Source: Crocosphaera sp. | GTDB lineage: Bacteria; Cyanobacteriota; Cyanobacteriia; Cyanobacteriales; Microcystaceae | DNA length: 38,197 bases | Assembly: GCF_030064895.1 (NCBI RefSeq) | Contig: NZ_JASJEB010000101.1 | Location: 1-38,197 of the forward strand | Direction: 5' to 3' | Shown: positions 5,361-38,197 of the stretch, one piece after another | Position numbering within the stretch: the first letter of the stretch is position 1 | Layout of the letters: each line of letters opens with the position of its first letter | Notes under the pieces: model-generated | Database searches by the model: none | What the model saw: only the letters and a program-made list of their open reading frames with translations | Told to the model about the DNA's origin: nothing | Translations under genes and position numbers: made by a program

Positions 5361-7769
5361 ATGGTTGCAACACCCGAGAAACCGCAAGTACAAGAAACTC
5401 CCCTCTCCCCCGAAGAATTGAGAAAAATTCATGCTTACTGGCGTGCTTGTAACTATTTAGCCGTTGGCATGATCTATCTAAAAGATAATCCTTTACTAAA
5501 AGAAACCCTCACAGAAGACCATGTTAAAAACCGTTTATTAGGTCACTGGGGATCAAGTCCTGGCTTAAGTTTTATCTACATTCATCTTAATCGCCTCATC
5601 AAAAAATACGATTTAGATGTTGTTTATATGGCAGGGCCAGGTCATGGTGCGCCCGGTATTTTAGGACCCGTTTATTTAGAAGGAACTTACTCCGAAGTTT
5701 ACCCCGAAAAAAGCGAAGACGAAGAAGGAATGAAAGCCTTTTTCAAACAGTTTTCCTTCCCCGGTGGTATCGGTAGTCACTGCACCCCAGAAACCCCCGG
5801 TTCCATCCACGAAGGAGGAGAATTAGGATATAGTTTATCCCATGCCTACGGATCTGTGTTAGATAATCCCGACCTGATCACTGTTGCTGTAGTAGGAGAC
5901 GGAGAAGCAGAAACAGGACCCTTAGCTACTGCATGGCATTCTAACAAATTTATTAACCCCATCAGAGACGGTGCAGTATTACCCGTTTTACACCTCAACG
6001 GTTATAAAATCGCTAACCCCACCATTTTAGCCCGTATCTCTCACGAAGAATTAGAATATCTCTTCAAAGGATACGGTTATAAACCCTATTTCGTAGAAGG
6101 TTCCGATCCCGATCTCATGCATCAAGCCATGGCTGCAACCATGGAAACTGCGATCGCAGAGATTAAAGAGATCCAAAAAGAGGCCCGTGATACAGGAGTG
6201 GCCAAACGTCCCATGTGGCCCATGATTGTTCTACGTTCCCCCAAAGGGTGGACCGGTCCCAAACAAGTTGATGGGAAAAAGACCGAAGACTTCTGGAGAT
6301 CGCACCAAGTCCCCTTATCCGGAATGCACGGGAACCCTGCACACATTAAAGTCTTAGAAGACTGGTTAAAAAGCTATAAACCAGAAGAACTGTTTGACGA
6401 CAACGGAACATTATTACCCGAGTTAAAAGAGTTAGCACCCACAGGAAACCGTCGTATTAGTGCCACCCTTTACGCTAACGGTGGTTTATTGCGCAAAGAC
6501 CTGAAAATGCCTGATTTTCGGGAGTATGGCGTAGAAGTGGACAAACCTGGTGCAGTAGAAGCCGAAAATACCCGTCCTTTAGGAGTATTTTTACGGGATG
6601 TCATGGCCAATAACATGAACAGTTTCCGTGTCTTTGGACCAGATGAAACCGCCTCTAATCGTCTCAACGCTATCTATGAAGTCAGCAAAAAAGTCTGGAT
6701 GGCTGATATTATCGATGCAGACGCAGACGGAACAGAGATCACCACCGATGGTCGGGTGATGGAAATGTTAAGTGAACACACCCTACAAGGATGGTTAGAA
6801 GGGTATTTATTAACAGGTCGTCACGGCTTTTTCCACACCTATGAAGCCTTTGCCCACGTAGTTGATTCTATGTTTAATCAACACGCAAAATGGTTAGATA
6901 TTTGTAAAAATGAAGTACCTTGGCGCGCGCCTATTTCTTCTTTAAATATCCTCCTTTCTTCCACAGTTTGGAGACAAGATCATAACGGTTTCTCCCACCA
7001 AGATCCCGGATATGTTGACCTTGTTACTAATAAGAGTGCCGGTGTAGTTCGGGTTTATTTTCCACCAGATGTTAACACCTTATTATCCGTTGGGAACCAC
7101 TGTTTAAATAGTAAAGATTACGTCAATGTTATTGTTGCTGATAAACAAAAACATCTGCAATATTTAACCATGGACGAAGCCATCAAACACTGTACCAAAG
7201 GTATTGGTATTTGGGAATGGGCTAGTAACGACGACTGTGGAAAATCTCCCGATGAACCCGATGTAATTATGGCTTGTTGTGGTGATGTTGCCACTAAAGA
7301 AGCGTTAGCAGCAACCGCCATTTTAAGGGAAGAATTCCCTGATTTAAAAGTCCGTTTCATCAACGTAGTGGACTTATTTAAACTGCAACCAGCAGAAGAA
7401 CATCCTCATGGACTTTCTTCTCGTGAATTTGACACTTTGTTTACAGTTGATAAGCCAATCATCTTCAATTTTCATGGTTATCCTTGGTTAATTCATAAAT
7501 TAACCTATCGTCATACCAATCACCATAATCTTCATGTTCGTGGCTACAAAGAAAAAGGTAACATTAACACACCTTTAGAATTAGCAATGAATAACCAAAT
7601 TGACCGCTTTAACTTAGTTTTAGATGTCATTGATCGAGTTCCTAAGTTAGGTTCAGCCGCAGCTTATGTTCAACAACGGATGAAAAATGCCATCATTGAA
7701 CATCGCGCCTATGCTTACGAAAACGGCATCGATAAACCAGAAATTACTGACTGGAAATGGCCTTTTTAA
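5361..7769 (+). CDS. xfp: Xylulose-5-phosphate/fructose-6-phosphate phosphoketolase
   Basis: This 802-residue thiamine diphosphate enzyme has the full family length. It cleaves xylulose-5-P (and usually fructose-6-P) with phosphate to acetyl-phosphate plus an aldose phosphate, bypassing pyruvate decarboxylation. Family hallmarks are [10 protein letters not shown] (about 91-100), [19 protein letters not shown], the TPP/Mg motif [66 protein letters not shown] and the C-terminal HGLSSREFD with [12 protein letters not shown]. The ATG at 5361 is preceded by TTGGAG (5347-5352), a reasonable ribosome site. It is followed 135 bases later by glgX in the same direction, with a hairpin and a palindrome between them, so co-transcription is uncertain. 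Both genes fit glycogen breakdown and overflow carbon metabolism. Confidence 0.95.
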
Positions 7770-7782
7770 AAGTCATTTAAAC

Positions 7783-7807
7783 TAATACAGTCTAGTAAAC
7801 TGTATTA
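7783..7807 (+). terminator. Hairpin downstream of xfp
   Basis: Arms TAATACAGT (7783-7791) and ACTGTATTA (7799-7807) form a perfect 9-bp stem with a 7-base loop, 14 bases after the xfp stop. No long U-run follows, so it may be a weak terminator or an RNA-stabilising hairpin. Confidence 0.5.
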
Positions 7808-7827
7808 ACATTCTGGTGAGTAAAAAT

Positions 7828-7856
7828 GTAGGGGCTTAATAGTATTAAGCCCCTAC
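7828..7856. repeat. Perfect 29-bp palindrome of the TAGGGGCTTAATA family
   Basis: Left arm GTAGGGGCTTAATA, one central base, and exact reverse-complement right arm TATTAAGCCCCTAC. It is the longest and most perfect member of a dispersed family in this window. It sits between xfp and glgX. Confidence 0.8.
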
Positions 7857-7904
7857 TTAAGTCTCTTATTAAAGATATTTAATTCTAAATTTTGATTGAC
7901 AACT

Positions 7905-10268
7905 ATGGCAAACCAAAAAGTCGGTGAGCAACATCCCATTTCAGGAAAATATGCACCCTTAGAAGAAGCAACTTGGCAAAATGCAGCTTATCCCTTGGGC
8001 GCACATTATCAAAAAGACGACGTTACCTTTGCTGTTTATTCCAAACGTGCGACTCGTATACTCTTAGAAATTTATCTTTCCCCCACAGAAGAAGACGCAA
8101 AATACGATTATTGGTTAAAAAAGAACCCCCAAGACGATATTTGGCGCGCTAAAGTCGCTAAACTGCCCCCAGGTAGCTTCTACGCATTTCGTTGCTGGGG
8201 ACCCAACTGGGAATATAAAGAAGGATGGCAACGAGGTAACTCTAATCTAGGTTTTAAGCAAGATGTAGACGATCAAGGCAACCGCTTTAACCCCAATAAA
8301 GTCTTATATGATCCCTACGCCAGAGAAATGTCCCATGATAAAACTGACCCGGCCATGTTAGAAGCCGGTGAAGATGGAGGGATGTACTGTACCGGAAGCC
8401 TAGATTATCATGGTTGTATCAGTCGAGAATACGATACCGGAAAATGGGTTCCTAAAGGTATTGTCATCGCCCCAGACAACGTTTCTACAGGCGATCGACC
8501 CCATATAGCGGCACAAGATGCAGCCATTTATGAGGCCCATGTGCGAGGGTTAACTCAACATCAATCATCCTCGCGACTACAAGACATTTTACAGGGAATA
8601 GAAGGGTTTGAAGCAGTAGAAAATATTCCCGAAGAATACCGAGGAACATACCTTGGTGCTGGTTATATGGCTAAATACCTGAAAGCGTTAGGCTTAACCA
8701 CCATAGAACTTTTACCCGTTCACGAGATCGATAACGATTGTAACCCAGATGACCAACCAGGGGGTAATTATTGGGGTTATATGACTTATGGGTTTTTTGC
8801 CCCCGATCGCCGTTATGCTTATGATAAATCTCCTGGTGGACCCACTCGTGAGTTTAAACAAATGGTCAAAGCGTTTCACGATGAAGGGTTAGAGGTGTAT
8901 CTGGATGTAGTTTATAACCATAGCGGAGAAGGAGGAAACGCCGAAGATAAAAACGTCGCCGCGTTTATCTGTTTTGGCGGTTTTGACACTAGAGAATACT
9001 ACGTTTTGACCGATGATAACCGCTTAGTCGATGGGGCTACAGGATGCGGTAATCAATTCAATTATTCCCACATTGTCACACAAAATTTAGTCATTGACTC
9101 TTTGACCTATTGGTTAGAAGAAATGGGAGTGGATGGCTTCAGGTTCGATCTCGCCCCCGTTTTAGGCAGAACCCCTAGTGCTTTTGCGAGAATGAACTGG
9201 GACGAACAAAGACAATTTTTCCCTCAACATCCCCTCCTGCAAAACATCAAACGATTGGGAGAGGAACACGACGCAGAAATTATCGCCGAAGCCTGGGATA
9301 TTTGGGGCTATGAGGTTGGTAATTTTCCCTTTGGGTGGGGGGAATGGAATGGACGTTATCGGGACGCTGTACGCCGTTTTTCCAAGGGAGACGGCAATAC
9401 TATGACTTTTCTCAGTCAAGTTAACGGAGATTACGAAAGTTTCAACGATCAAGGGGGGCCGCAACGATCTATCAATTTTTTAGTGGCCCACGATGGCTTT
9501 ACATTGATGGATTTAGTCAGTTATAACCAGAAAAATAATGGTAATCCTTGGCCTTTTGGTCCTTCCGATGGGGGCAACGATAACAATGATTCCTGGGACT
9601 CCGATGGTGATGTTTCCCTGAGACGGCAACGGTTGCGCAACTTTTGGACAATTTTGTTCTTATCTCGGGGTGTACCCATGGTTGTTTGGGGGGATGAGTT
9701 GGCCAGAACCCAAAACGGTAATAATAACCCTTATAACGTCGATAGTGTGGCGACATGGAACAATTATCAAATGATCGCCACAAACAGCCCTACTGCGGTT
9801 CCTACGGAAAATGGAGGGGTTTATCACGATAATTTTGGCACAGGGACTAATAGTGATGGTTGCAACCCTTTGTTTAAGTTTGCTGCTTATGTTGCCCACT
9901 TACGGAAAAATCATGTAGCCTTGCGACAACATCAATACGCTGATTTTGATATGGACTCGGGGAATGATGTTACTTATCAGTTTAAGAAGGTTGACGGTTA
10001 TAGTGATTTAGAAGAAGGCGATCGTTGTATTTGGTTACGCATCGATGGTAGCGAGGTTAATGACCATGATTTCTTGCTACTAATTAATATGTATTCTCAA
10101 CCGGTTTCTTTTTCTATTCCAGAGGAAAATCAACAATGGCGACTTATTATTGATACAGCAGCTTGGGCGGAAACTAACTGTAATTATTGGTCAGTGGAAG
10201 AAGCTAATGTTATCTCTAATAATTATCAAGTTAATCCTTTTTCTATTGTGGTCTTAGAACTGAACTGA
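7905..10268 (+). CDS. glgX: Glycogen debranching enzyme, isoamylase type (GH13)
   Basis: This protein of about 787 residues belongs to the GH13 isoamylase/GlgX family, which hydrolyses alpha-1,6 branches of glycogen in the cytoplasm. There is an N-terminal carbohydrate-binding (CBM48-like) region (YPLGAHYQKDDVTFAVYSKRATRILLEIY). The four GH13 regions follow: DVVYNHSGEGG (I), GFRFDLAPVLG with the nucleophile Asp (II), IIAEAWDIWG with the acid Glu (III) and FLVAHDGFTLMDLVSYN (IV). The isoamylase-type WWGE-like loop reads FPFGWGEWNG. A TTG three codons upstream (7896) is also in frame, but the ATG at 7905 is the more natural start; no clear ribosome site is seen for either. Two palindromic repeats follow the gene. 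Confidence 0.92.
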   Translation: MANQKVGEQHPISGKYAPLEEATWQNAAYPLGAHYQKDDVTFAVYSKRATRILLEIYLSPTEEDAKYDYWLKKNPQDDIWRAKVAKLPPGSFYAFRCWGPNWEYKEGWQRGNSNLGFKQDVDDQGNRFNPNKVLYDPYAREMSHDKTDPAMLEAGEDGGMYCTGSLDYHGCISREYDTGKWVPKGIVIAPDNVSTGDRPHIAAQDAAIYEAHVRGLTQHQSSSRLQDILQGIEGFEAVENIPEEYRGTYLGAGYMAKYLKALGLTTIELLPVHEIDNDCNPDDQPGGNYWGYMTYGFFAPDRRYAYDKSPGGPTREFKQMVKAFHDEGLEVYLDVVYNHSGEGGNAEDKNVAAFICFGGFDTREYYVLTDDNRLVDGATGCGNQFNYSHIVTQNLVIDSLTYWLEEMGVDGFRFDLAPVLGRTPSAFARMNWDEQRQFFPQHPLLQNIKRLGEEHDAEIIAEAWDIWGYEVGNFPFGWGEWNGRYRDAVRRFSKGDGNTMTFLSQVNGDYESFNDQGGPQRSINFLVAHDGFTLMDLVSYNQKNNGNPWPFGPSDGGNDNNDSWDSDGDVSLRRQRLRNFWTILFLSRGVPMVVWGDELARTQNGNNNPYNVDSVATWNNYQMIATNSPTAVPTENGGVYHDNFGTGTNSDGCNPLFKFAAYVAHLRKNHVALRQHQYADFDMDSGNDVTYQFKKVDGYSDLEEGDRCIWLRIDGSEVNDHDFLLLINMYSQPVSFSIPEENQQWRLIIDTAAWAETNCNYWSVEEANVISNNYQVNPFSIVVLELN

Positions 10269-30386: not shown

Positions 30387-30423
30387 GGTGGTTCACAAGT
30401 AAAAAGTTAGAAGTTCCTCACTC

Positions 30424-30443
30424 CGTTCCGGCGCTATCGCACA
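30424..30443 (+). repeat. Dispersed 20-base repeat, copy 2
   Basis: CGTTCCGGCGCTATCGCACA matches 4741-4760 at 18 of 20 positions. The surrounding 30387-30678 has no gene. Confidence 0.6.
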
Positions 30444-30678
30444 AAAGTCAAAAGTATAACCTCTTCCTAAAAAGAAGAAGATTCAATAAATGATAGTTTT
30501 CTATCTTTTTTCTTCATAAATAAAGAGACTTTAATACTGTCCATTTCTAACAATTAGACATTTTCTCATCTACATAGAATATTTGTACTGTTTAGCTGTC
30601 GGGTCAAATTCATTTTGAAGAGTGATCGCTTATCTCTAAAGTCCTCACAGTGAACCTTTTCCAACTCTTGTCACCCCG

Positions 30679-31833
30679 TCAACTGACAAAGACTTTGTAT
30701 GAAGGGACTGGTAATGGAATGGGAAAAAGAGACTTGAAAAGCAGCCTGACTAACCAATAAAAAACAAAGCCTACTCCTTTTACATATATATATAAGGGTT
30801 TTTGATAACAACCTAATCTAGCTTTAAATACATCGGCTGTTTGACCAACTTCAATATCTAATAAATCAAATGTTAAAGCTTTTTCTAAAGACCTATAAGC
30901 TAAATTAAAATATAGATCGGATTCGGCATTAAACTTAAAATTTAATCCACAAAATAAACAGTAGAAAATAGCTTCATGATAAAGGGAAAACATAAAGCCA
31001 ATTATTTCACTGTCATTATAAGCTAAGGTCAAACAAGCTTGTCCGGGAAAGTTCATCACTAATTCCTGAAAAAAAGTAATTGGTAAAATTTCTAATTTAG
31101 TTTTTGATTTATCGACAATAGCTTCGTATAGCTGATGAACTTCTGATGTGTATAGCTCTAGTATTTTTTCAGATTCTTGCACATCAATAAAATGAAATCC
31201 TGCCTTTTTAAATTTATTTCTTGATTTTCTAATTTCTTTACGATAGTTGGCTCTCAGGCTATGATAGTAATCATTGAAGTCAACAAAATTAGGGTTAAAA
31301 TGATTCATAGGGAGACTATAAGCACGAGAAAAGCCTAGGTTTGATAAAATATCAAGCTGCTGACACTCAGAAGAATTAAACTCTTTATAAACAATTAAAT
31401 TAGCTTTTTCTTTAATAGCCAACTTTTTTAGAAAATTATCGAGTAAGTTAATAATTTCTCCAGAATTGGCTTCTGTAGACATTATTAAGTGATTTTGTCC
31501 TAAGGAAATTGGCAGTCCACAAAATAAAATTTTAGTAGAAAAAAAACTGGGCAGAAGTTTTCGGAATAAAGATAGATATTTTTTGACATTTTTGTCACTT
31601 AAAATTGTTAGATCGGTTATAAAAGTAGATACAACGGAACAAGCCTGAGGATTTTTTTCTTGATCATAAAAAATTAGATACCAAAACTTACTGAACTGGC
31701 TCATAGATTTTTCGAGCGTTAATAAAAAACGAGCATCCATAAACACTTTTCTCTTATGTTGAGTAAGAATTCGTTCCCAGTCCTGTAAATTGATTTCTTG
31801 AATGGAATGATAAAGTTTATATGAATAGGTCAT
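30679..31833 (-). CDS. FemAB/GNAT-like acyltransferase
   Basis: This 384-residue protein has the two-lobed GNAT arrangement of the FemAB-like or peptidogalycan-biosynthesis acyltransferases. An N-terminal lobe is followed by YHSLRANYRKEIRKSRNKFK, then LTLAYNDSEIIGFMFSLYHE and SDLYFNLAYRSLEKALTFDL, ending in EVGQTADVFKARLGC with the typical late G-x-K/R region. The last 35 residues are hydrophobic and amphipathic (GFVFYWLVRLLFKSLFPIP), suggesting membrane association. It is the last gene of the presumed MMPL / aminotransferase-reductase operon, 87 bases after the fusion gene. The acyl donor and acceptor are not shown by sequence; amine acylation is an inference from context. Confidence 0.75.
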   Translation of the reverse strand: MTYSYKLYHSIQEINLQDWERILTQHKRKVFMDARFLLTLEKSMSQFSKFWYLIFYDQEKNPQACSVVSTFITDLTILSDKNVKKYLSLFRKLLPSFFSTKILFCGLPISLGQNHLIMSTEANSGEIINLLDNFLKKLAIKEKANLIVYKEFNSSECQQLDILSNLGFSRAYSLPMNHFNPNFVDFNDYYHSLRANYRKEIRKSRNKFKKAGFHFIDVQESEKILELYTSEVHQLYEAIVDKSKTKLEILPITFFQELVMNFPGQACLTLAYNDSEIIGFMFSLYHEAIFYCLFCGLNFKFNAESDLYFNLAYRSLEKALTFDLLDIEVGQTADVFKARLGCYQKPLYIYVKGVGFVFYWLVRLLFKSLFPIPLPVPSYKVFVS

Positions 31834-31920
31834 AAAAGAAATGGCTCTTGTTTTAAGAAATGATCTTCAATCGAAAATACTATTGCGCTACGGCAAAAGA
31901 AATAGATCCGAACTTTAGCA

Positions 31921-34458
31921 CTAGGATTTTTGGTTAAAATAAAAGCCTCCCAAGGTAAACCCATGTTTGTGCGCCATTGATAACGCCCAGTTGACTCTTT
32001 CAGGAGTAATCATTCCATAGGAACCATGAGACTTAATCCCTTCAAGACCCATGAGTAACGTTTCACTCAAACAAGCAAATGCATGACCCGCTTGGAGGGG
32101 AATACCACTAATCACAAAATCTTTATTAGAAGGAAGACGAACAATACCCCCTTGAATGACTAAAATATCAGGCCGCTCATGATGAACAGACGAATGAACA
32201 TCCGCAGGAACAGAAAGATCGCAAATGACCACGGGCTGCTGCCCTAAATGTTCTGCATAGATCAACGATTGAGCCGCATTAGAGGCTGAGACAATTAAAG
32301 AAGAAGAACGTAAATCATTGAAGTTATCCGTAGCTTGAATCGCAACATCCGGTGCTATTTCCCTAATTTTAGCGATCACAGCTTTCAACTTAGGAGAATT
32401 AAGATAACGAACCATCAAAACAATTTTTTTGACGTAGGGAGCCATCATAACAGCATAAGTAGAAGCAATATTCCCCGTTGCGCCGACAACAGCCAAACTC
32501 GCTTGAGATAAACTAATCTTCCGTTGTTGGGCTGCCTGTTTCAGCGCCAAAATTCCCATACCAACGGTCAAAGCATTGCCAGTTGTTAACCCAATATCAG
32601 GGGTTTTTATACGACGACAGTTGCGAGAGACAATAGACGTATAACCCCCCAAACCCACAACTTCACAGCCTTGTTCTTTGGCCATAATTACGGCCGATTC
32701 AATCTTCTGCATAATCGAATCTGTTTGTCTTCTTTCTAACTGATGCTTAATTTGTTGAGAGGTTAAATTTAATCCCATAAAACTTAAATGAACCTCGTCT
32801 CCCGTTTGGGAACAGACATGAACGCGATCAAGAACAGTTGGCCCCATCACAGATGAAGTTTTCGCTAAATAAGCTTCTAGTAATTTAGGCTCTAATGCTG
32901 CTAAAGAAGCATCACACAAAACCCCATGCTCAGACTGAATCAGATGTCCCAAAAAAGCGACACGACGCTGAGTTCGGGGCTTTTCTTGCTTCAAAGAAAG
33001 GGGAAATTTTAAAGGTGTGATTTTACCAGAAGGCAATCCTACTTGAAAAGCCGTCAGATGAACTAGATCTAACTCTTTAACGGCTTGACAGAAACAAGCT
33101 AGTGCCTTTATGAATCGATTAAGTTCTGACTCACGAATGTAAGCAGATGGCTGAATTCTGAGAGTGAGGGGTTGACTTAAGGTTGGCATAACCCTAATCT
33201 GATGAACATGAAGTAAATATGCGGCTGCGAGATAACCAAAGTATCCATTTTGAGAAAACATTCGCAACCCATTAGAGAGGGACTCTGATTGGTCATAGAG
33301 TTCAACTCCTATCATTAACCCTTTACCTCGTACCGCTTTAATTTCCTGAGGAAAACGAGTTTTTAATTCTTCTAAAGCCTCTAAAAAATTAGCCCCAACC
33401 TTAGCACAACGTTCAGGCAAATGATCCCGTTCCAGGATTTCTAATGCTTTGAGGGCAATTAAACAACTCAGATCATCTTCTGCAAAGGTAGAAGTTTGTT
33501 TGATAGAAAAGTCAGGAATAAAGCGATCTCGCTTAATCATCAAAGCTCCAATTTTGGCCAAACCCCCTCCCAGTGCTTTCGATAAACAAATATAATCAGG
33601 TTCGATTCCTAGAGACTCAGAGGCTAAAAAGGTTCCTGTCCGTCCCATTCCTGTTTGAATTTCATCACTCACTAAAGGAATATTATTAACTTGAGCGATC
33701 TCCACTAACCAGTCAATAAATGCCTGGGGATGTTCCTTAATACCACCTTCCCCTTGAATGGGTTCAAGAAAAATAGCAGCGACTTGAGAAACTTCCTTGC
33801 TCATCGTTGCCCAACCATGAGGATCATAGGGATCGAGATAACGAACTTGTAGCCCAAATGTTTGATTGACTTCTTTTTCCGGCCCACTTAACTGAATGGC
33901 TCCCAAAGTTTTTCCATGAAAAGACCCTTTAACTGCCCAAAAAATTGGACGTTTTCGTTCGAGATAGAGATGTCTTATGGCTGCTTCAATGGTTTCCGCT
34001 CCTGAGTTGGTAAAAATTGTTATGTAATCTCCAACTAATAGACTTAATCTTTCCCCTAATTGAGCGGCTCCTGAACGACAAGAACCTTGGGCAAGAAAGG
34101 GGATCTGATTTACAAAAAACTGTTGCGCTTTTGCTACTAATTCTGGATGATGATGTCCAAAGAGATTCGCTCCATATCCTCCAACTAAATCTAAAATTTT
34201 AACCAGTTGCTTGCCTTGTCGTTGCCAAAGAAAATCTCCCTCTCCACGTTCATAAACCGCATCTAAGTTCACTGTTTTGAGAAGGCGTATCAATTCTGGA
34301 CGACAGTAATATTCATAGGCTTTGACCGTTAATGATTCATTTGGTAATTGTTCTTCGTTAGAGAAATAATCTTGCTCAGATAATGATGTTTTTTTTAAGT
34401 TCCAATGAGAACCTTCCTCTGACTTGATGGGGGAGGGGATTTGTTGTAACTTTTTCAT
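31921..34458 (-). CDS. Class III aminotransferase fused to acyl-ACP-reductase-like (AAR) dehydrogenase
   Basis: This 845-residue fusion has two domains. Residues about 45-465 are a class III PLP aminotransferase: GGYGANLFGHHHPE, NSGAETIEAAI (151-161), FHGKTLGAI, LEPIQGEGGI, DEIQTGMGRTG (Asp265) and Schiff-base Lys294 in LSKALGGGL. Residues about 497-840 resemble the cyanobacterial long-chain acyl-ACP reductase: FLGHLIQSEHG, GLGGYTSIVSRN (602-613), TTGNALT, the NADPH loop AVVGATGNIAS (656-666), VCDLSVPADV-like ICDLSVPADV, VIQGGIVRLP, and Cys796 in HAFACLSETLL, where AAR has its thioester cysteine. Predicted chemistry is acyl thioester to aldehyde to primary amine in one polypeptide. It starts 72 bases after the MMPL gene. 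The substrate is unproven. Confidence 0.85.
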   Translation of the reverse strand: MKKLQQIPSPIKSEEGSHWNLKKTSLSEQDYFSNEEQLPNESLTVKAYEYYCRPELIRLLKTVNLDAVYERGEGDFLWQRQGKQLVKILDLVGGYGANLFGHHHPELVAKAQQFFVNQIPFLAQGSCRSGAAQLGERLSLLVGDYITIFTNSGAETIEAAIRHLYLERKRPIFWAVKGSFHGKTLGAIQLSGPEKEVNQTFGLQVRYLDPYDPHGWATMSKEVSQVAAIFLEPIQGEGGIKEHPQAFIDWLVEIAQVNNIPLVSDEIQTGMGRTGTFLASESLGIEPDYICLSKALGGGLAKIGALMIKRDRFIPDFSIKQTSTFAEDDLSCLIALKALEILERDHLPERCAKVGANFLEALEELKTRFPQEIKAVRGKGLMIGVELYDQSESLSNGLRMFSQNGYFGYLAAAYLLHVHQIRVMPTLSQPLTLRIQPSAYIRESELNRFIKALACFCQAVKELDLVHLTAFQVGLPSGKITPLKFPLSLKQEKPRTQRRVAFLGHLIQSEHGVLCDASLAALEPKLLEAYLAKTSSVMGPTVLDRVHVCSQTGDEVHLSFMGLNLTSQQIKHQLERRQTDSIMQKIESAVIMAKEQGCEVVGLGGYTSIVSRNCRRIKTPDIGLTTGNALTVGMGILALKQAAQQRKISLSQASLAVVGATGNIASTYAVMMAPYVKKIVLMVRYLNSPKLKAVIAKIREIAPDVAIQATDNFNDLRSSSLIVSASNAAQSLIYAEHLGQQPVVICDLSVPADVHSSVHHERPDILVIQGGIVRLPSNKDFVISGIPLQAGHAFACLSETLLMGLEGIKSHGSYGMITPERVNWALSMAHKHGFTLGGFYFNQKS

Positions 34459-34530
34459 CTTTTTAATAAGTAAGTGTTATGATTATGTACACATCTTGGA
34501 GTGACATTTAACTAATGAATTAGAGATATA

Positions 34531-36780
34531 CTAATCCAATCGCCATTGAATGCGCTTAAGACGTAAAAACTCAGGAGCCCACCAATTCCATTTTCCCATT
34601 AGCTTCATGCTCGCTGGAACGAGAACAGCCCGAATCAAGGTAGAATCAAGTACAACTGAAATAGCAATTCCTAACCCTAATGCTTTAATAAAAATTAGAT
34701 CGCTAAAGGCAAATGCCCCTGTAACGATAAACATTAATAAAGCTGCACTGGTAATAATTCTTCCTGTTTTTTCCAAGCCCTCTACAATACTGCCATGATT
34801 ATTTCCTGTTTTATCATAAGCTTCCTTCATTCGTGTCAATAGAAAAACTTCATAATCCATTGAAAGACCAAACAGGATACAAAACATCACTATGGGTAAT
34901 AGGATATCGATGTAGCCAACCGGAGTAAAATTGAGAAAACTCTTGAAATTTCCCTGTTGAAAAACAAAAATTAATGCCCCAAAAGAAGCACTAATAGACA
35001 TCAGATTCAAAAATATAGCTTTAATCGGCAAAATCACTGATTGAAAAAGAATTGTCAGCGCAATAAATGTGACAATCATCATTGTTGCTAAAACCAAGGG
35101 AAAGCGATTCATAACAATATTAATCGTATCTAGGCTACGGGAAATTTGCCCACCAACAAGAATTTGTAACCCTTCATGATTAAAATTTTGCAAATCTTTG
35201 ACTAATTCAAAAGAAGTCGGTGCATTACTATCTGTCTTACTCTTAATACTAATCACAGTTGTGGACTCATTGCTAAACTGTTTGATTTTATCTACGAAGG
35301 GGGCAGGCAATAATTCTAGGTTCTTATAAAGTCTTTGATAATCTTTCACATCAAGTTGCGGCCGAATATTAAAAAGACTTCTTACCTCTGCAACGCGAGC
35401 ATCGCTTTGCCATGTTTCCACTAAGTTATAAAGAATGGCAATATTATCTTCTGATAAAATAGGTGCATTAGGATTAGTCGAACGAATTGCTACTAAAATC
35501 GGAGCCGTTTCTCCCACCCCAAAAGCTTTTTCTAACACCTCAACTCCTTGTCGCGCCTCAACATCACTGGGTAAGGTTTTGATTCCCCCTAGCCCCCAAC
35601 GAGCATCAAAAAAGGGCGAAATCATTACTGTTACCACCATTAAAACTAGAACTGTGGCCAAAATGCTATGACGAATCACACGACGAGCAAAACTCCCCCA
35701 AAACCCTTGACTCCCATGACGAGGATTGATAATACACCAACGATTAATTGAGAAACCTAAAACCGACAATAAAGCTGGGACTAAGGTTAAAGCAGCAGCG
35801 ATGGAAAGAAACACGACTACAGCCCCAGCTACTCCTAATGATTGTAAAAGAGAAATGGGAAATAACATTAAGCAGACTAACCCAATACAGGTGGTTAACC
35901 CAGAGAAAAAGACAGCCCTTCCTGCTGTATCTACTGTTTGGATTACAGCTTGTTCGATAGAACCCTTGGTTAATTCTTCTCGAAAACGACTCACCATGAC
36001 AAGGGTAAAATCGATCCCTATCCCTAGTCCTAACATGGTGGTTAAATTGAGGGCAAAGATGGAAATCTCCATCTGTAAGGCTAATAGATACAATAGACCG
36101 GAACTAATTGAAACAGTCATAATGGCCATCGCCACTGGTAAGGTAGCAGCTACCACTGAACCAAAGACAAATAACAAGGCAATCAGTGTTAAGGGTAAGG
36201 CTAAGACTTCAGCACGAACTAAGTCTTTTTCACTAATCCGGTGATCTTCATAATCAAAAACGTCCTTTCCTGTTAAATAAGTTTTTAAATTATTGTTTTG
36301 ATCATTGGTGAGAATTTTTTGAATCTCTGAGATAACAGAATAGACTTCAGTTCCTTTAACGGTTAATTCAATAGTGTTGTAACCAGTGCGTCCATCTTTA
36401 CTTAAATATTCGGGATTTTTAGTCTCTATTGTATTATCCTTAACAGTCGATAAATGATGAATTTGGGATAGTTGTTTTTCGATTTCAGTTTGATGTTCAG
36501 AGAGAGGACTCTCATCTCTACTTTCAAAAACTAAAGTTAAAAAATCTGAATTAATAGAAAGCTCTTTTTGTAATAATTGTTCGGCTTGAAGTGCTTCTCC
36601 TGCATCATAGGTGGTAATGACACCTTGGAGAACTTTATCTAGATGGGGCGCAGTGGCTAAACTTATTAGTAATAATAGCCCCCAAATTGCGATTACGATA
36701 AAACGATAATGGTAGGTCAAACGACTCAATCTAACGAAAATAGAAGATTGACTGACTTTTTTGGGGATCGATGTTTTCAT
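34531..36780 (-). CDS. MMPL/RND-family transporter
   Basis: This 749-residue integral membrane protein has the duplicated MMPL topology: one helix (near 26-44), a periplasmic loop of about 130 residues, five helices, then the same again. Each half carries the conserved Asp motif: GIGIDFTLVMVSRFRE (Asp257) and FGLSMDYEVFLLTRMKE (Asp642), the proton-relay signature of MmpL lipid exporters. Relatives export lipids, polyketides or carotenoid/hopanoid-type compounds. As first gene of the minus-strand cluster, it is the likely exporter of the product made by the two downstream genes. A TTGAAA-like -35 lies at 36843-36848 on the minus strand, but the -10 is poor. Confidence 0.9.
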   Translation of the reverse strand: MKTSIPKKVSQSSIFVRLSRLTYHYRFIVIAIWGLLLLISLATAPHLDKVLQGVITTYDAGEALQAEQLLQKELSINSDFLTLVFESRDESPLSEHQTEIEKQLSQIHHLSTVKDNTIETKNPEYLSKDGRTGYNTIELTVKGTEVYSVISEIQKILTNDQNNNLKTYLTGKDVFDYEDHRISEKDLVRAEVLALPLTLIALLFVFGSVVAATLPVAMAIMTVSISSGLLYLLALQMEISIFALNLTTMLGLGIGIDFTLVMVSRFREELTKGSIEQAVIQTVDTAGRAVFFSGLTTCIGLVCLMLFPISLLQSLGVAGAVVVFLSIAAALTLVPALLSVLGFSINRWCIINPRHGSQGFWGSFARRVIRHSILATVLVLMVVTVMISPFFDARWGLGGIKTLPSDVEARQGVEVLEKAFGVGETAPILVAIRSTNPNAPILSEDNIAILYNLVETWQSDARVAEVRSLFNIRPQLDVKDYQRLYKNLELLPAPFVDKIKQFSNESTTVISIKSKTDSNAPTSFELVKDLQNFNHEGLQILVGGQISRSLDTINIVMNRFPLVLATMMIVTFIALTILFQSVILPIKAIFLNLMSISASFGALIFVFQQGNFKSFLNFTPVGYIDILLPIVMFCILFGLSMDYEVFLLTRMKEAYDKTGNNHGSIVEGLEKTGRIITSAALLMFIVTGAFAFSDLIFIKALGLGIAISVVLDSTLIRAVLVPASMKLMGKWNWWAPEFLRLKRIQWRLD

Positions 36781-37021
36781 AAACTTTGAAAGAAAAACAC
36801 AAGTAAGTTAGAGGATTTAAACTAAAAATAATCCTATTCTTGTTTCAATGTTAATTCTGATTAACTCAAGATTTCCTGAAAGTTTTCTGAAAAAAACCTT
36901 AAAAATAGCTTAAAGAATTTATTTGTTTGTGGCTCTTTATATAATGTACCCCAGAAACTGGACAAGGTGTTAAGATAGAAATGCTGTTCCTAAACTATTA
37001 ACAACAAGAGAAAAAATTATA
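36781..37021. other. Intergenic region upstream of the MMPL operon
   Basis: This AT-rich region must hold the minus-strand operon promoter. A TATAAT lies at about 36941-36946 on the plus strand. The string GTACCCCAGAAACTGGACAA (36946-36965) looks like an insertion-sequence terminal repeat but has no partner in the window. No ORF is seen. Confidence 0.4.
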
Positions 37022-37110
37022 CCAAGCAACACGGGCAGCGCAAAGCTCCCCTCTTTCAAGTGGGAGATGTGGCGCAACACGGGTAATTTATTGCCCGTGA
37101 ATATTTCTTA
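37022..37110 (+). mobile_element. Probable left end of the TnpB element at the right edge
   Basis: Two hairpins stand just before tnpB: GCGC...CTCCC/GGGAG...GCGC (37038-37075) and CACGGGTAA/TTGCCCGTG (37078-37099). CAACACGGG occurs twice, at 37027 and 37075. Subterminal hairpins of this kind mark IS200/IS605 left ends. No tnpA is present. The outer boundary is not fixed. Confidence 0.45.
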
Positions 37111-37151: not shown

Positions 37152-38197
37152 ATGATAACAATGACCTACGATTTTAAGCTCAAGCCTAAAAAGTCTCAAG
37201 TCCAATTGATTGAGATGTATCTTGAAACGTGCAGGAAAATTTATAACTATGCACTTCAAGAGCGAAAAGATTGGGTTAATAGTCGCAAGTCTCCTATCAA
37301 TGCTTGTTCGATTCATTCTGAATATATCATTAGTCCAGATACTTCTAGACCTACCTACAATTCTCAATGTAAGTCTTTAACAGAAGCCAAAAAAACCTAT
37401 CCTAAATTAAAAGAACCTCATTCTCAAGTCCTACAGCAAACATTAAGAACTTTAGAGGCTGCTTTTGTCAATATGTGGGAAAGAGGTTTTGGTTTTCCTC
37501 GCTTTAAAAAGAAAATGAGAAGTTTTCTCTACCCATCAGTGAAGCAAGAATGGGTGGGTGATGGATGGGTGAAACTTCCCAAAATAGGGAAAGTTAATAT
37601 GAGGATGTCTCGCCCTATCAGTAATGGGTTTCTCTTGAAACAAATTAGGGTAGTTAAACGAGCTTCAGGGTACTTTGTACAGTTAATCTATCAGTTAGGG
37701 GTTAATGTTCCTGAAACCTCTATACAGGGCTATCCATTAGGGGTGGATATTGGGCTTGATTCTTATTTAGCTACTAGCGAGGGAGAATTAGTCAAAAGAC
37801 CTCGGTTTTTTAATCAACTTCATGGCAAGCTTAAATCGCTGCAAAGAAAGTTAAAAAACAAAAAGAAAGGGTCTAATAATTGGCAAAAACTTCAAGCTAA
37901 AATAGCTAGAATTTATCAAAAAATTCACGACACTAGAAAGGACTGGCATTTTAAACTGGCTCATCATTTATGTGACAAAGCTGGCATGATATTTGTTGAA
38001 GATATCAACTTTAAAGCATGGGCTAAAGGTTTGTTTGGCAAGCATACTAAGGATGCTAGTTTCGGTCAATTCTTCAACATCTTGGCTTATGTTTGTTGGA
38101 AAAGAGATGTCTATTTTCTTAAGGTAGATAAAGACTACACCAGTCAGATATGCCCTAATTGCAATACCCAAACAGGCAAAAAGAGTCTGTCAAATAG
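37152..38197 (+). CDS. tnpB: RNA-guided endonuclease TnpB (cut by window end)
   Basis: The frame is open from ATG 37152 (a second ATG at 37161) to the window end, 348 codons. The N-terminal helix-turn-helix-like part has MTYDFKLKPKKSQVQLIEMY. RuvC residues are present: Asp199 in PLGVDIGLDSYLA and Glu283 in GMIFVEDINFKAW. The zinc finger starts at Cys334-x2-Cys337 (QICPNCNTQTGKK). The third RuvC Asp would lie beyond the window. It has no upstream tnpA or RHH gene, so it depends on a transposase elsewhere. Nothing in the visible part is damaged, so the protein may be active with a guide RNA encoded past the right edge. Confidence 0.9.
   Translation, partial: MITMTYDFKLKPKKSQVQLIEMYLETCRKIYNYALQERKDWVNSRKSPINACSIHSEYIISPDTSRPTYNSQCKSLTEAKKTYPKLKEPHSQVLQQTLRTLEAAFVNMWERGFGFPRFKKKMRSFLYPSVKQEWVGDGWVKLPKIGKVNMRMSRPISNGFLLKQIRVVKRASGYFVQLIYQLGVNVPETSIQGYPLGVDIGLDSYLATSEGELVKRPRFFNQLHGKLKSLQRKLKNKKKGSNNWQKLQAKIARIYQKIHDTRKDWHFKLAHHLCDKAGMIFVEDINFKAWAKGLFGKHTKDASFGQFFNILAYVCWKRDVYFLKVDKDYTSQICPNCNTQTGKKSLSN

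Follow-up and report, generated by a model that had tools for sequence, protein, structure and literature searches.

The window, by which we mean the whole 38,197-nucleotide stretch analysed here (contig NZ_JASJEB010000101.1 of Crocosphaera sp., assembly GCF_030064895.1), includes three consecutive genes on the minus strand that are separated by gaps of 72 and 87 bases. This arrangement had been described in an earlier reading made without database searches, the sequence-only reading, and the open reading frames (ORFs) were found as it gave them. In the direction of transcription the genes code for an MMPL/RND-type transporter, a protein in which a class III transaminase is joined to an acyl-thioester reductase (named the fusion), and a FemAB/GNAT-like transferase (named FemAB). 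Their coordinates are collected in Table 1. The fusion is a known kind of enzyme in a new gene context.

Table 1. Features of the three-gene cassette (coordinates in the window)
Feature	Coordinates	Strand	Characteristics
FemAB/GNAT-like transferase gene	30679..31833	-	384 amino acids; Pfam FemAB_like E 5.7e-20; Foldseek FemX 1ne9
Transaminase-acyl-thioester-reductase fusion gene	31921..34458	-	845 amino acids; TamH/PpKTFusion architecture
Acyl-ACP reductase-like domain	31945..32970	-	about residues 497-838; GATGNIA 659-665; Cys796
Class III transaminase domain	33049..34338	-	about residues 41-470; Lys294, Asp265; Pfam Aminotran_3
MMPL/RND-type transporter gene	34531..36780	-	749 amino acids; closest solved relative MmpL3
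Cassette block common to window and genome G001	30683..36930	-	blastn, 93-96% identity, three adjoining pieces

Blastn analysis revealed a block of about 6.25 kb that is common to the window and genome G001, while the flanks differ; it consists of the three genes and, ahead of the MMPL gene, about 150 bases of upstream sequence. In G001, a congener, and also in G284, a MAG named Xenococcus, the three genes are found in the window's order next to different neighbours. Since the block lies in G001 between different flanks and the trio is found again in G284, the association is more than chance, and these alignments suggest that the trio was gained or lost as one block. In the congeners G005, G006 and G007 homology to the window ends at 30387-30391, immediately past the Uma2 gene, and no part of the cassette could be aligned there (alignments longer than 120 bases). 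The right flank of the window was also not found by blastn in the breakpoint stretches of these three genomes, and the site therefore counts as a breakpoint rather than as a clean empty site. Neither direct nor inverted repeats of at least 14 bases were present within either cassette flank, and the sole blastn match of each flank to the window was the flank itself. The trio is under purifying selection, with ratios of nonsynonymous to synonymous substitution rates (dN/dS) of 0.19-0.23 against G001 and of 0.11-0.23 against G284, the latter being rough values at a dS of 1.2-1.9. Promoter and terminator scans gave counts near the shuffled expectation (22 versus 19.5 and 7 versus 5.0) and carry no weight.

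Two dispersed repeats (30393-30455 and 30531-30678) lie between the cassette and the Uma2 gene; the matches listed for them include many short copies in congeneric genomes. On the other side, upstream of the MMPL gene, an ORF identified by reading as TnpB/IS605-like spans 37152-38197 and is open at the contig end; a hairpin lies by it at 37078-37099.

The N-terminal half of the fusion matches Pfam Aminotran_3 with 214.4 bits (cut-off 30.5, E 2.8e-63), and Lys294 and Asp265, the residues by which it had been called a complete class III transaminase, are kept in all 30 aligned transaminase domains, the window's included; the fragments L070, L077, L078 and L082 are left out of this and the following residue count and of the tree described below. 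For the C-terminal half (residues 470-845) the sequence-only reading had proposed a domain following the cyanobacterial acyl-ACP (acyl carrier protein) reductase (AAR) motif by motif. The relationship to AAR was borne out by model TIGR04058 (90.3 bits, E 1.4e-25, below its curated cut-off of 449.7), with the amendment that the PigE model NF053554 scores higher (113.5 bits, E 9.7e-33, also under the curated cut-off). The whole protein reached 356.7 bits against this PigE equivalog model, whose cut-off is 850. As neither curated cut-off is reached, the reductase half is a relative, not an equivalog, of PigE and AAR. Glutamyl-tRNA reductase models scored far lower (27.6 bits, E 1.3e-6), and Pfam Shikimate_DH remained sub-threshold over this half (23.3 bits versus 24.3). 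Its PDB matches are PigE 4ppm and the AAR sequences 6jzq (E 3.6e-16), 6jzu and 6jzz, with no others up to E 0.1. A better fit to a non-acyl dehydrogenase, which would have spoken against the assignment, was thus not found, PigE and AAR scoring best.

Counted along the PDB sequence alignment, Cys796 falls on AAR Cys294, and it is kept in all 32 aligned reductase domains, including those of the window and of the window genome's own AAR-like protein; its placing at the AAR catalytic position is therefore upheld. The predicted fold of the fusion (7-sequence alignment; predicted local distance difference test score, pLDDT, 73.9; predicted template modelling score 0.50) is nearest to CrmG, PigE and YgjG. 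No AAR is among the 50 rows listed in this fold comparison, and the reductase half is therefore assigned from its sequence. The window genome also has a separate AAR-like gene (G000:C106), recognised by its match and by reading of the sequence. Descent of the reductase domain from this host protein was considered and rejected: the nearest rows in the reductase tree are other fusions, and the branch of the host protein is very long (2.86), its fork having weak support (78/82).

This type of enzyme is already published (statements on PMC9594044, PMC10829540 and PMC8341465 refer to the portions of these papers available to us). The window protein fits the definition of the natural transaminase-AAR (TAm-AAR) fusions, with a class III transaminase at the N terminus and an AAR-like reductase at the C terminus of one ORF, and it has both their pyridoxal phosphate (PLP) lysine and their reductase cysteine. 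PtTamH, from the tambjamine YP1 pathway of Pseudoalteromonas tunicata, has the same domain order, with an AAR-like thioester reductase and a catalytic cysteine and lysine; this likeness, as well as that to PpKTFusion, is drawn from published descriptions and not from a direct sequence alignment. Together with the ligase-carrier protein TamA, L-glutamate and NADH, for which it is specific, PtTamH converted C12 acid to C12 amine, while C12-coenzyme A (CoA) gave no amine; its putative catalytic residue, Cys887, was named by comparison with AAR Cys294 (PMC9594044). Unlike the window fusion, PtTamH belongs to a bipyrrole pathway with a TamA ligase-ACP, and the available text of that paper mentions no MMPL-FemAB trio. 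More TAm-AAR fusions have been characterised, one of them from a koreenceine-type cluster (PMC10829540). PpKTFusion and its thermophilic homologues share the TAm-AAR order and an equivalent of AAR Cys294 but, in contrast to the window fusion, are found in koreenceine-type clusters with type II fatty acid synthase/polyketide synthase (PKS) genes; the main text of this paper uses none of the terms cyanobacteria, MMPL or Planctomyc-. PigE, of the prodigiosin pathway, combines both activities and is the best NCBIfam and best PDB sequence match, although its domain order is reversed (reductase first) and the window protein scores far below its cut-off. The AAR of Synechococcus elongatus (6JZU) shares the reductase homology and Cys294 but is a stand-alone protein.

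The chemistry of the fusion has been shown for these homologues, from which we infer it for the window protein. Given the TamH/PpKTFusion architecture and the retention of Lys294, Asp265 and Cys796, homology gives good support to the conversion of acyl-ACP to an aldehyde and then to a fatty amine, and we consider it very likely that the window fusion carries it out. The earlier proposal of thioester reduction followed by transamination is supported by the domain order and catalytic residues shared with PtTamH and by the acyl-AMP-ligase homologues that stand beside related fusions, as described below.

The transporter is a clear member of its family (Pfam MMPL PF03176, 275.4 bits versus a cut-off of 20.5). 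Its closest solved relative by sequence is MmpL3 (PDB 7nvh, E 1.3e-77), although with 322 bits it does not reach the curated score of 1400 of the MmpL3 equivalog model NF052608. MmpL3 moves trehalose monomycolate. The copies adjoining the fusion are 96% identical in G001 and 73% in G284. FemAB matches Pfam FemAB_like PF04339 (72.2 bits versus 27) and Acetyltransf_6 (30.7 bits versus 22), and the top Foldseek match of its predicted fold is FemX 1ne9 (E 1.3e-10, template modelling score about 0.5, root-mean-square deviation about 7), so that FemX is its closest solved relative by predicted fold only. FemX is an enzyme that attaches amino acids to precursors of peptidoglycan. A GNAT CoA motif, [QR]xxGx[GA], had no match in the 384 amino acids, a weak sign that is not used as proof.

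The fusion is patchily distributed. At E <= 1e-60, three of the 388 genomes in a sample of the order have it, as do four of 386 in a sample of the phylum that overlaps the first and includes the window's own genome. Within the genus, two of nine genomes have it, the window's among them (some are 79-89% complete). At the same E-value limit as for the order, the phylum of the Gemmataceae genome gave 14 of 294 (including G671 and G672, chosen as carriers), and that of the Terriglobia genome three of 297 (including G669, chosen as a carrier). The closest of the named carriers are a metagenome-assembled genome (MAG) of the window's genus, Crocosphaera (93%), and a Xenococcus MAG (72%); further off are two Acidobacteriota (54-55%), a Gemmataceae MAG (52%) and a Planctomycetota MAG (34%). 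These represent six of nine loci, L032-L034 having been set aside as matching the transaminase half only. Ten plasmid records matched the fusion at E <= 1e-40, eight over at least 80% of its length, and five of the ten loci were examined (H1, H2, H5, H7 and H9). In a tree of 32 reductase domains the three cyanobacterial fusions group with the two Acidobacteriota (98/93), and this group then joins the rows of the Gemmataceae order (97/90); the placement of several further rows, which have long branches, is unsure, and seven of the 29 inner forks are open.

The FemAB subfamily (E <= 1e-15) was present in one of 243 genomes of the order, the window's own, in a sample that evidently did not include the carriers G001 and G284, and in four of 102 genomes of the order of the Gemmataceae genome. 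Seven genomes carry it (G000, G001, G284, G671, G1287, G1298 and G1352), and in all except G1298 and G1352 a full-length fusion lies near it.

Gene neighbours were scanned with home-made queries at 31 fusion loci; G736, G805, G820 and G849 are present twice and many loci are cut by contig ends. A homologue of an acyl-AMP ligase stands beside the fusion in nine of the 31 (L028, L029, L031, L038, L045, L066, L068, L071 and L079), Pfam AMP-binding having been checked for L028 and L038. MMPL homologues are found in six stretches (the window, L024, L025, L043, L044 and L071), that of L071 being cut off and about 6 kb from the fusion. The FemAB subfamily is found in four (the window, L024, L025 and L030) and at the later locus L089, where lipase-like and insertion-sequence-like ORFs, read by eye, lie between fusion and FemAB (7374-9594). 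In the Gemmataceae MAG the FemAB gene adjoins the fusion, the ORFs overlapping by 4 bases, and in a second genome of that order it lies 2.7 kb away. In G671, the Gemmataceae genome, the sole MMPL match is weak (E 4e-6) and lies away from the fusion, and G672 has no match to the window FemAB at E <= 1e-5. No FemAB match was found at E <= 1e-5 in G390, G421 and G428, three genomes from the window's phylum; they do have MMPL relatives, but not within the stretches that surround the fusion. The expectation that the trio would be kept in relatives thus holds for the window, G001 and G284, where it is intact, while it is broken up in G390, G421 and G428, in the Acidobacteriota and in the Gemmataceae order.

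Other gene sets surround the wider family. A Leisingera plasmid (L043, 8128-15536) has transaminase, reductase and AMP-binding domains in one protein, encoded between LolA_like and MMPL genes; since the L028 ligase query gave no match to it, this AMP-binding domain may be of another ligase type. The triple fusion is also near pabB and another AMP-binding gene. MMPL and LolA-like genes are found near the fusion in two distant plasmid loci, those of Leisingera and Photobacterium. The neighbours in L028 are a class I/II aminotransferase-fold enzyme, an acyl-CoA dehydrogenase, a permease, an ACP, a short-chain dehydrogenase/reductase (SDR) and PAP2. The acidobacterial loci L028 (3476-15326) and L029 (3526-12270) have in common the class I/II aminotransferase-fold enzyme, read by eye as oxoamine-synthase-like, the permease, the fusion and the acyl-AMP ligase; ACP, SDR and PAP2 come after this set in L028, and L029 stops at the contig end. 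This set is possibly a sphingoid-like or amine lipid pathway. Proteins of the pyruvate phosphate dikinase/phosphoenolpyruvate-utilizer kind are fused to or near the transaminase-reductase in L038 (10056-15365), L039 (6264-11731), L064 and L071. Genes of this kind occur in two genomes of the window's phylum and in two others. The Rhodovulum and Haematobacter homologues have none of the scanned partners in the stretch in view.

Taken together, we lean towards the trio being a compact operon that makes a long-chain amine lipid for export and apparently moves as one unit, with either an amino acid or an acyl group as the FemAB donor. An acyl chain would pass from acyl-ACP onto Cys796, the reductase domain would use NADH or NADPH to convert it to the aldehyde, and the fused PLP transaminase would receive the aldehyde and form a primary fatty amine. 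The sequence-only reading had named NADPH as the cofactor; PtTamH uses NADH. The GNAT/FemX-like protein would then attach an amino acid or acyl group, and the MmpL3-like transporter would move the amine lipid out of the inner membrane. Acyl substrates are indicated for the family by the ligase homologues beside nine of the 31 fusions and by the AMP-binding domain fused in Leisingera, and the order of the trio is kept in three cyanobacterial genomes with different flanks. Also in favour are the purifying selection on the trio, the FemAB genes close to fusions in the Gemmataceae order, the MMPL and LolA-like genes by the distant fusions of Leisingera and Photobacterium, and the nearness of the transporter to MmpL3. 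The last two steps are proposed from gene linkage and family: FemAB would, on balance, modify the amine made by the fusion, and the transporter is likely to move the product of the pathway. As the genes travel together, these estimates and that for the fusion are not independent. A more specific version, a portable operon for a cationic lipid of the cyanobacterial outer membrane in which the FemX-like enzyme would join an amino acid from aminoacyl-tRNA to a long-chain alkylamine and the MmpL3-like pump would flip or export the product, is offered tentatively.

Several findings weigh against the amine lipid operon. The two acidobacterial genomes have neither a FemAB nor an MMPL match anywhere at E <= 1e-5, and no MMPL gene was seen near the fusions of the Gemmataceae order or the Acidobacteriota. 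Among the FemAB carriers, G1298 gave no match to the reductase half of the fusion at E <= 1e-10, and G1352 has a reductase fragment only, on another contig, with its FemAB gene at a contig end. FemAB has no sequence relative in the PDB, its fold model was made from a 4-sequence alignment (pLDDT 76.6), and CoA-using GNAT proteins and MprF-type domains rank closely behind FemX, so that the fold does not decide between an aminoacyl and an acyl donor. Reduction by PigE was seen in lysate and not with the purified protein (PMC8341465). Finally, the cassette includes neither an ACP nor an acyl-AMP ligase gene, and the acyl-ACP must then come from general fatty acid synthesis.

The amine could instead be released as, or cyclised into, a small secreted alkaloid of the koreenceine, tambjamine or prodigiosin kind, with FemAB tailoring it and the MMPL protein acting as an efflux pump for a bioactive compound. 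Characterised relatives serve secondary metabolites (PMC9594044, PMC10829540, PMC8341465), the patchy distribution in the order would suit an accessory metabolite, and the Photobacterium homologue with its MMPL and LolA-like genes is surrounded by ORFs judged by eye to be ketosynthases. Photobacterium (3) is also listed among the published TAm-fusion clusters, in which the present strain is not shown to be included (PMC10829540). However, no PKS, nonribosomal peptide synthetase or cyclase gene is present among the three genes, and the transporter is nearest to MmpL3, which is named for a lipid substrate; we regard the alkaloid as doubtful. It is improbable that the three genes stand side by side but share no product, the amine being used elsewhere, FemAB acting on peptidoglycan, to which its Pfam description relates, or on peptides, and the transporter exporting an unrelated substrate: the gene sets around the wider family do vary greatly, but the trio forms one block between different flanks, and the rare FemAB subfamily is again found near the fusion in two genomes of the Gemmataceae order. 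That the substrate of the reductase domain is another thioester or an aminoacyl compound and not a fatty acyl chain, as the weak glutamyl-tRNA reductase matches might indicate, is highly improbable in view of the far better PigE and AAR scores and of the acyl-AMP-ligase homologues adjoining related fusions.

The trio as a set was not found described in the open-licence literature searched, and the three-gene kit as a whole seems undescribed. If the amine lipid operon is correct, the transaminase-reductase fusions of alkaloid pathways would have a counterpart in a minimal cyanobacterial export operon, which would also be a source of biocatalysts for the conversion of fatty acids to amines. The three-gene set could be moved into a laboratory strain and tested for a fatty-amine-based membrane lipid. 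An aminoacyl-alkylamine would be a previously unseen cyanobacterial lipid, built on a fatty amine and not on a fatty acid.

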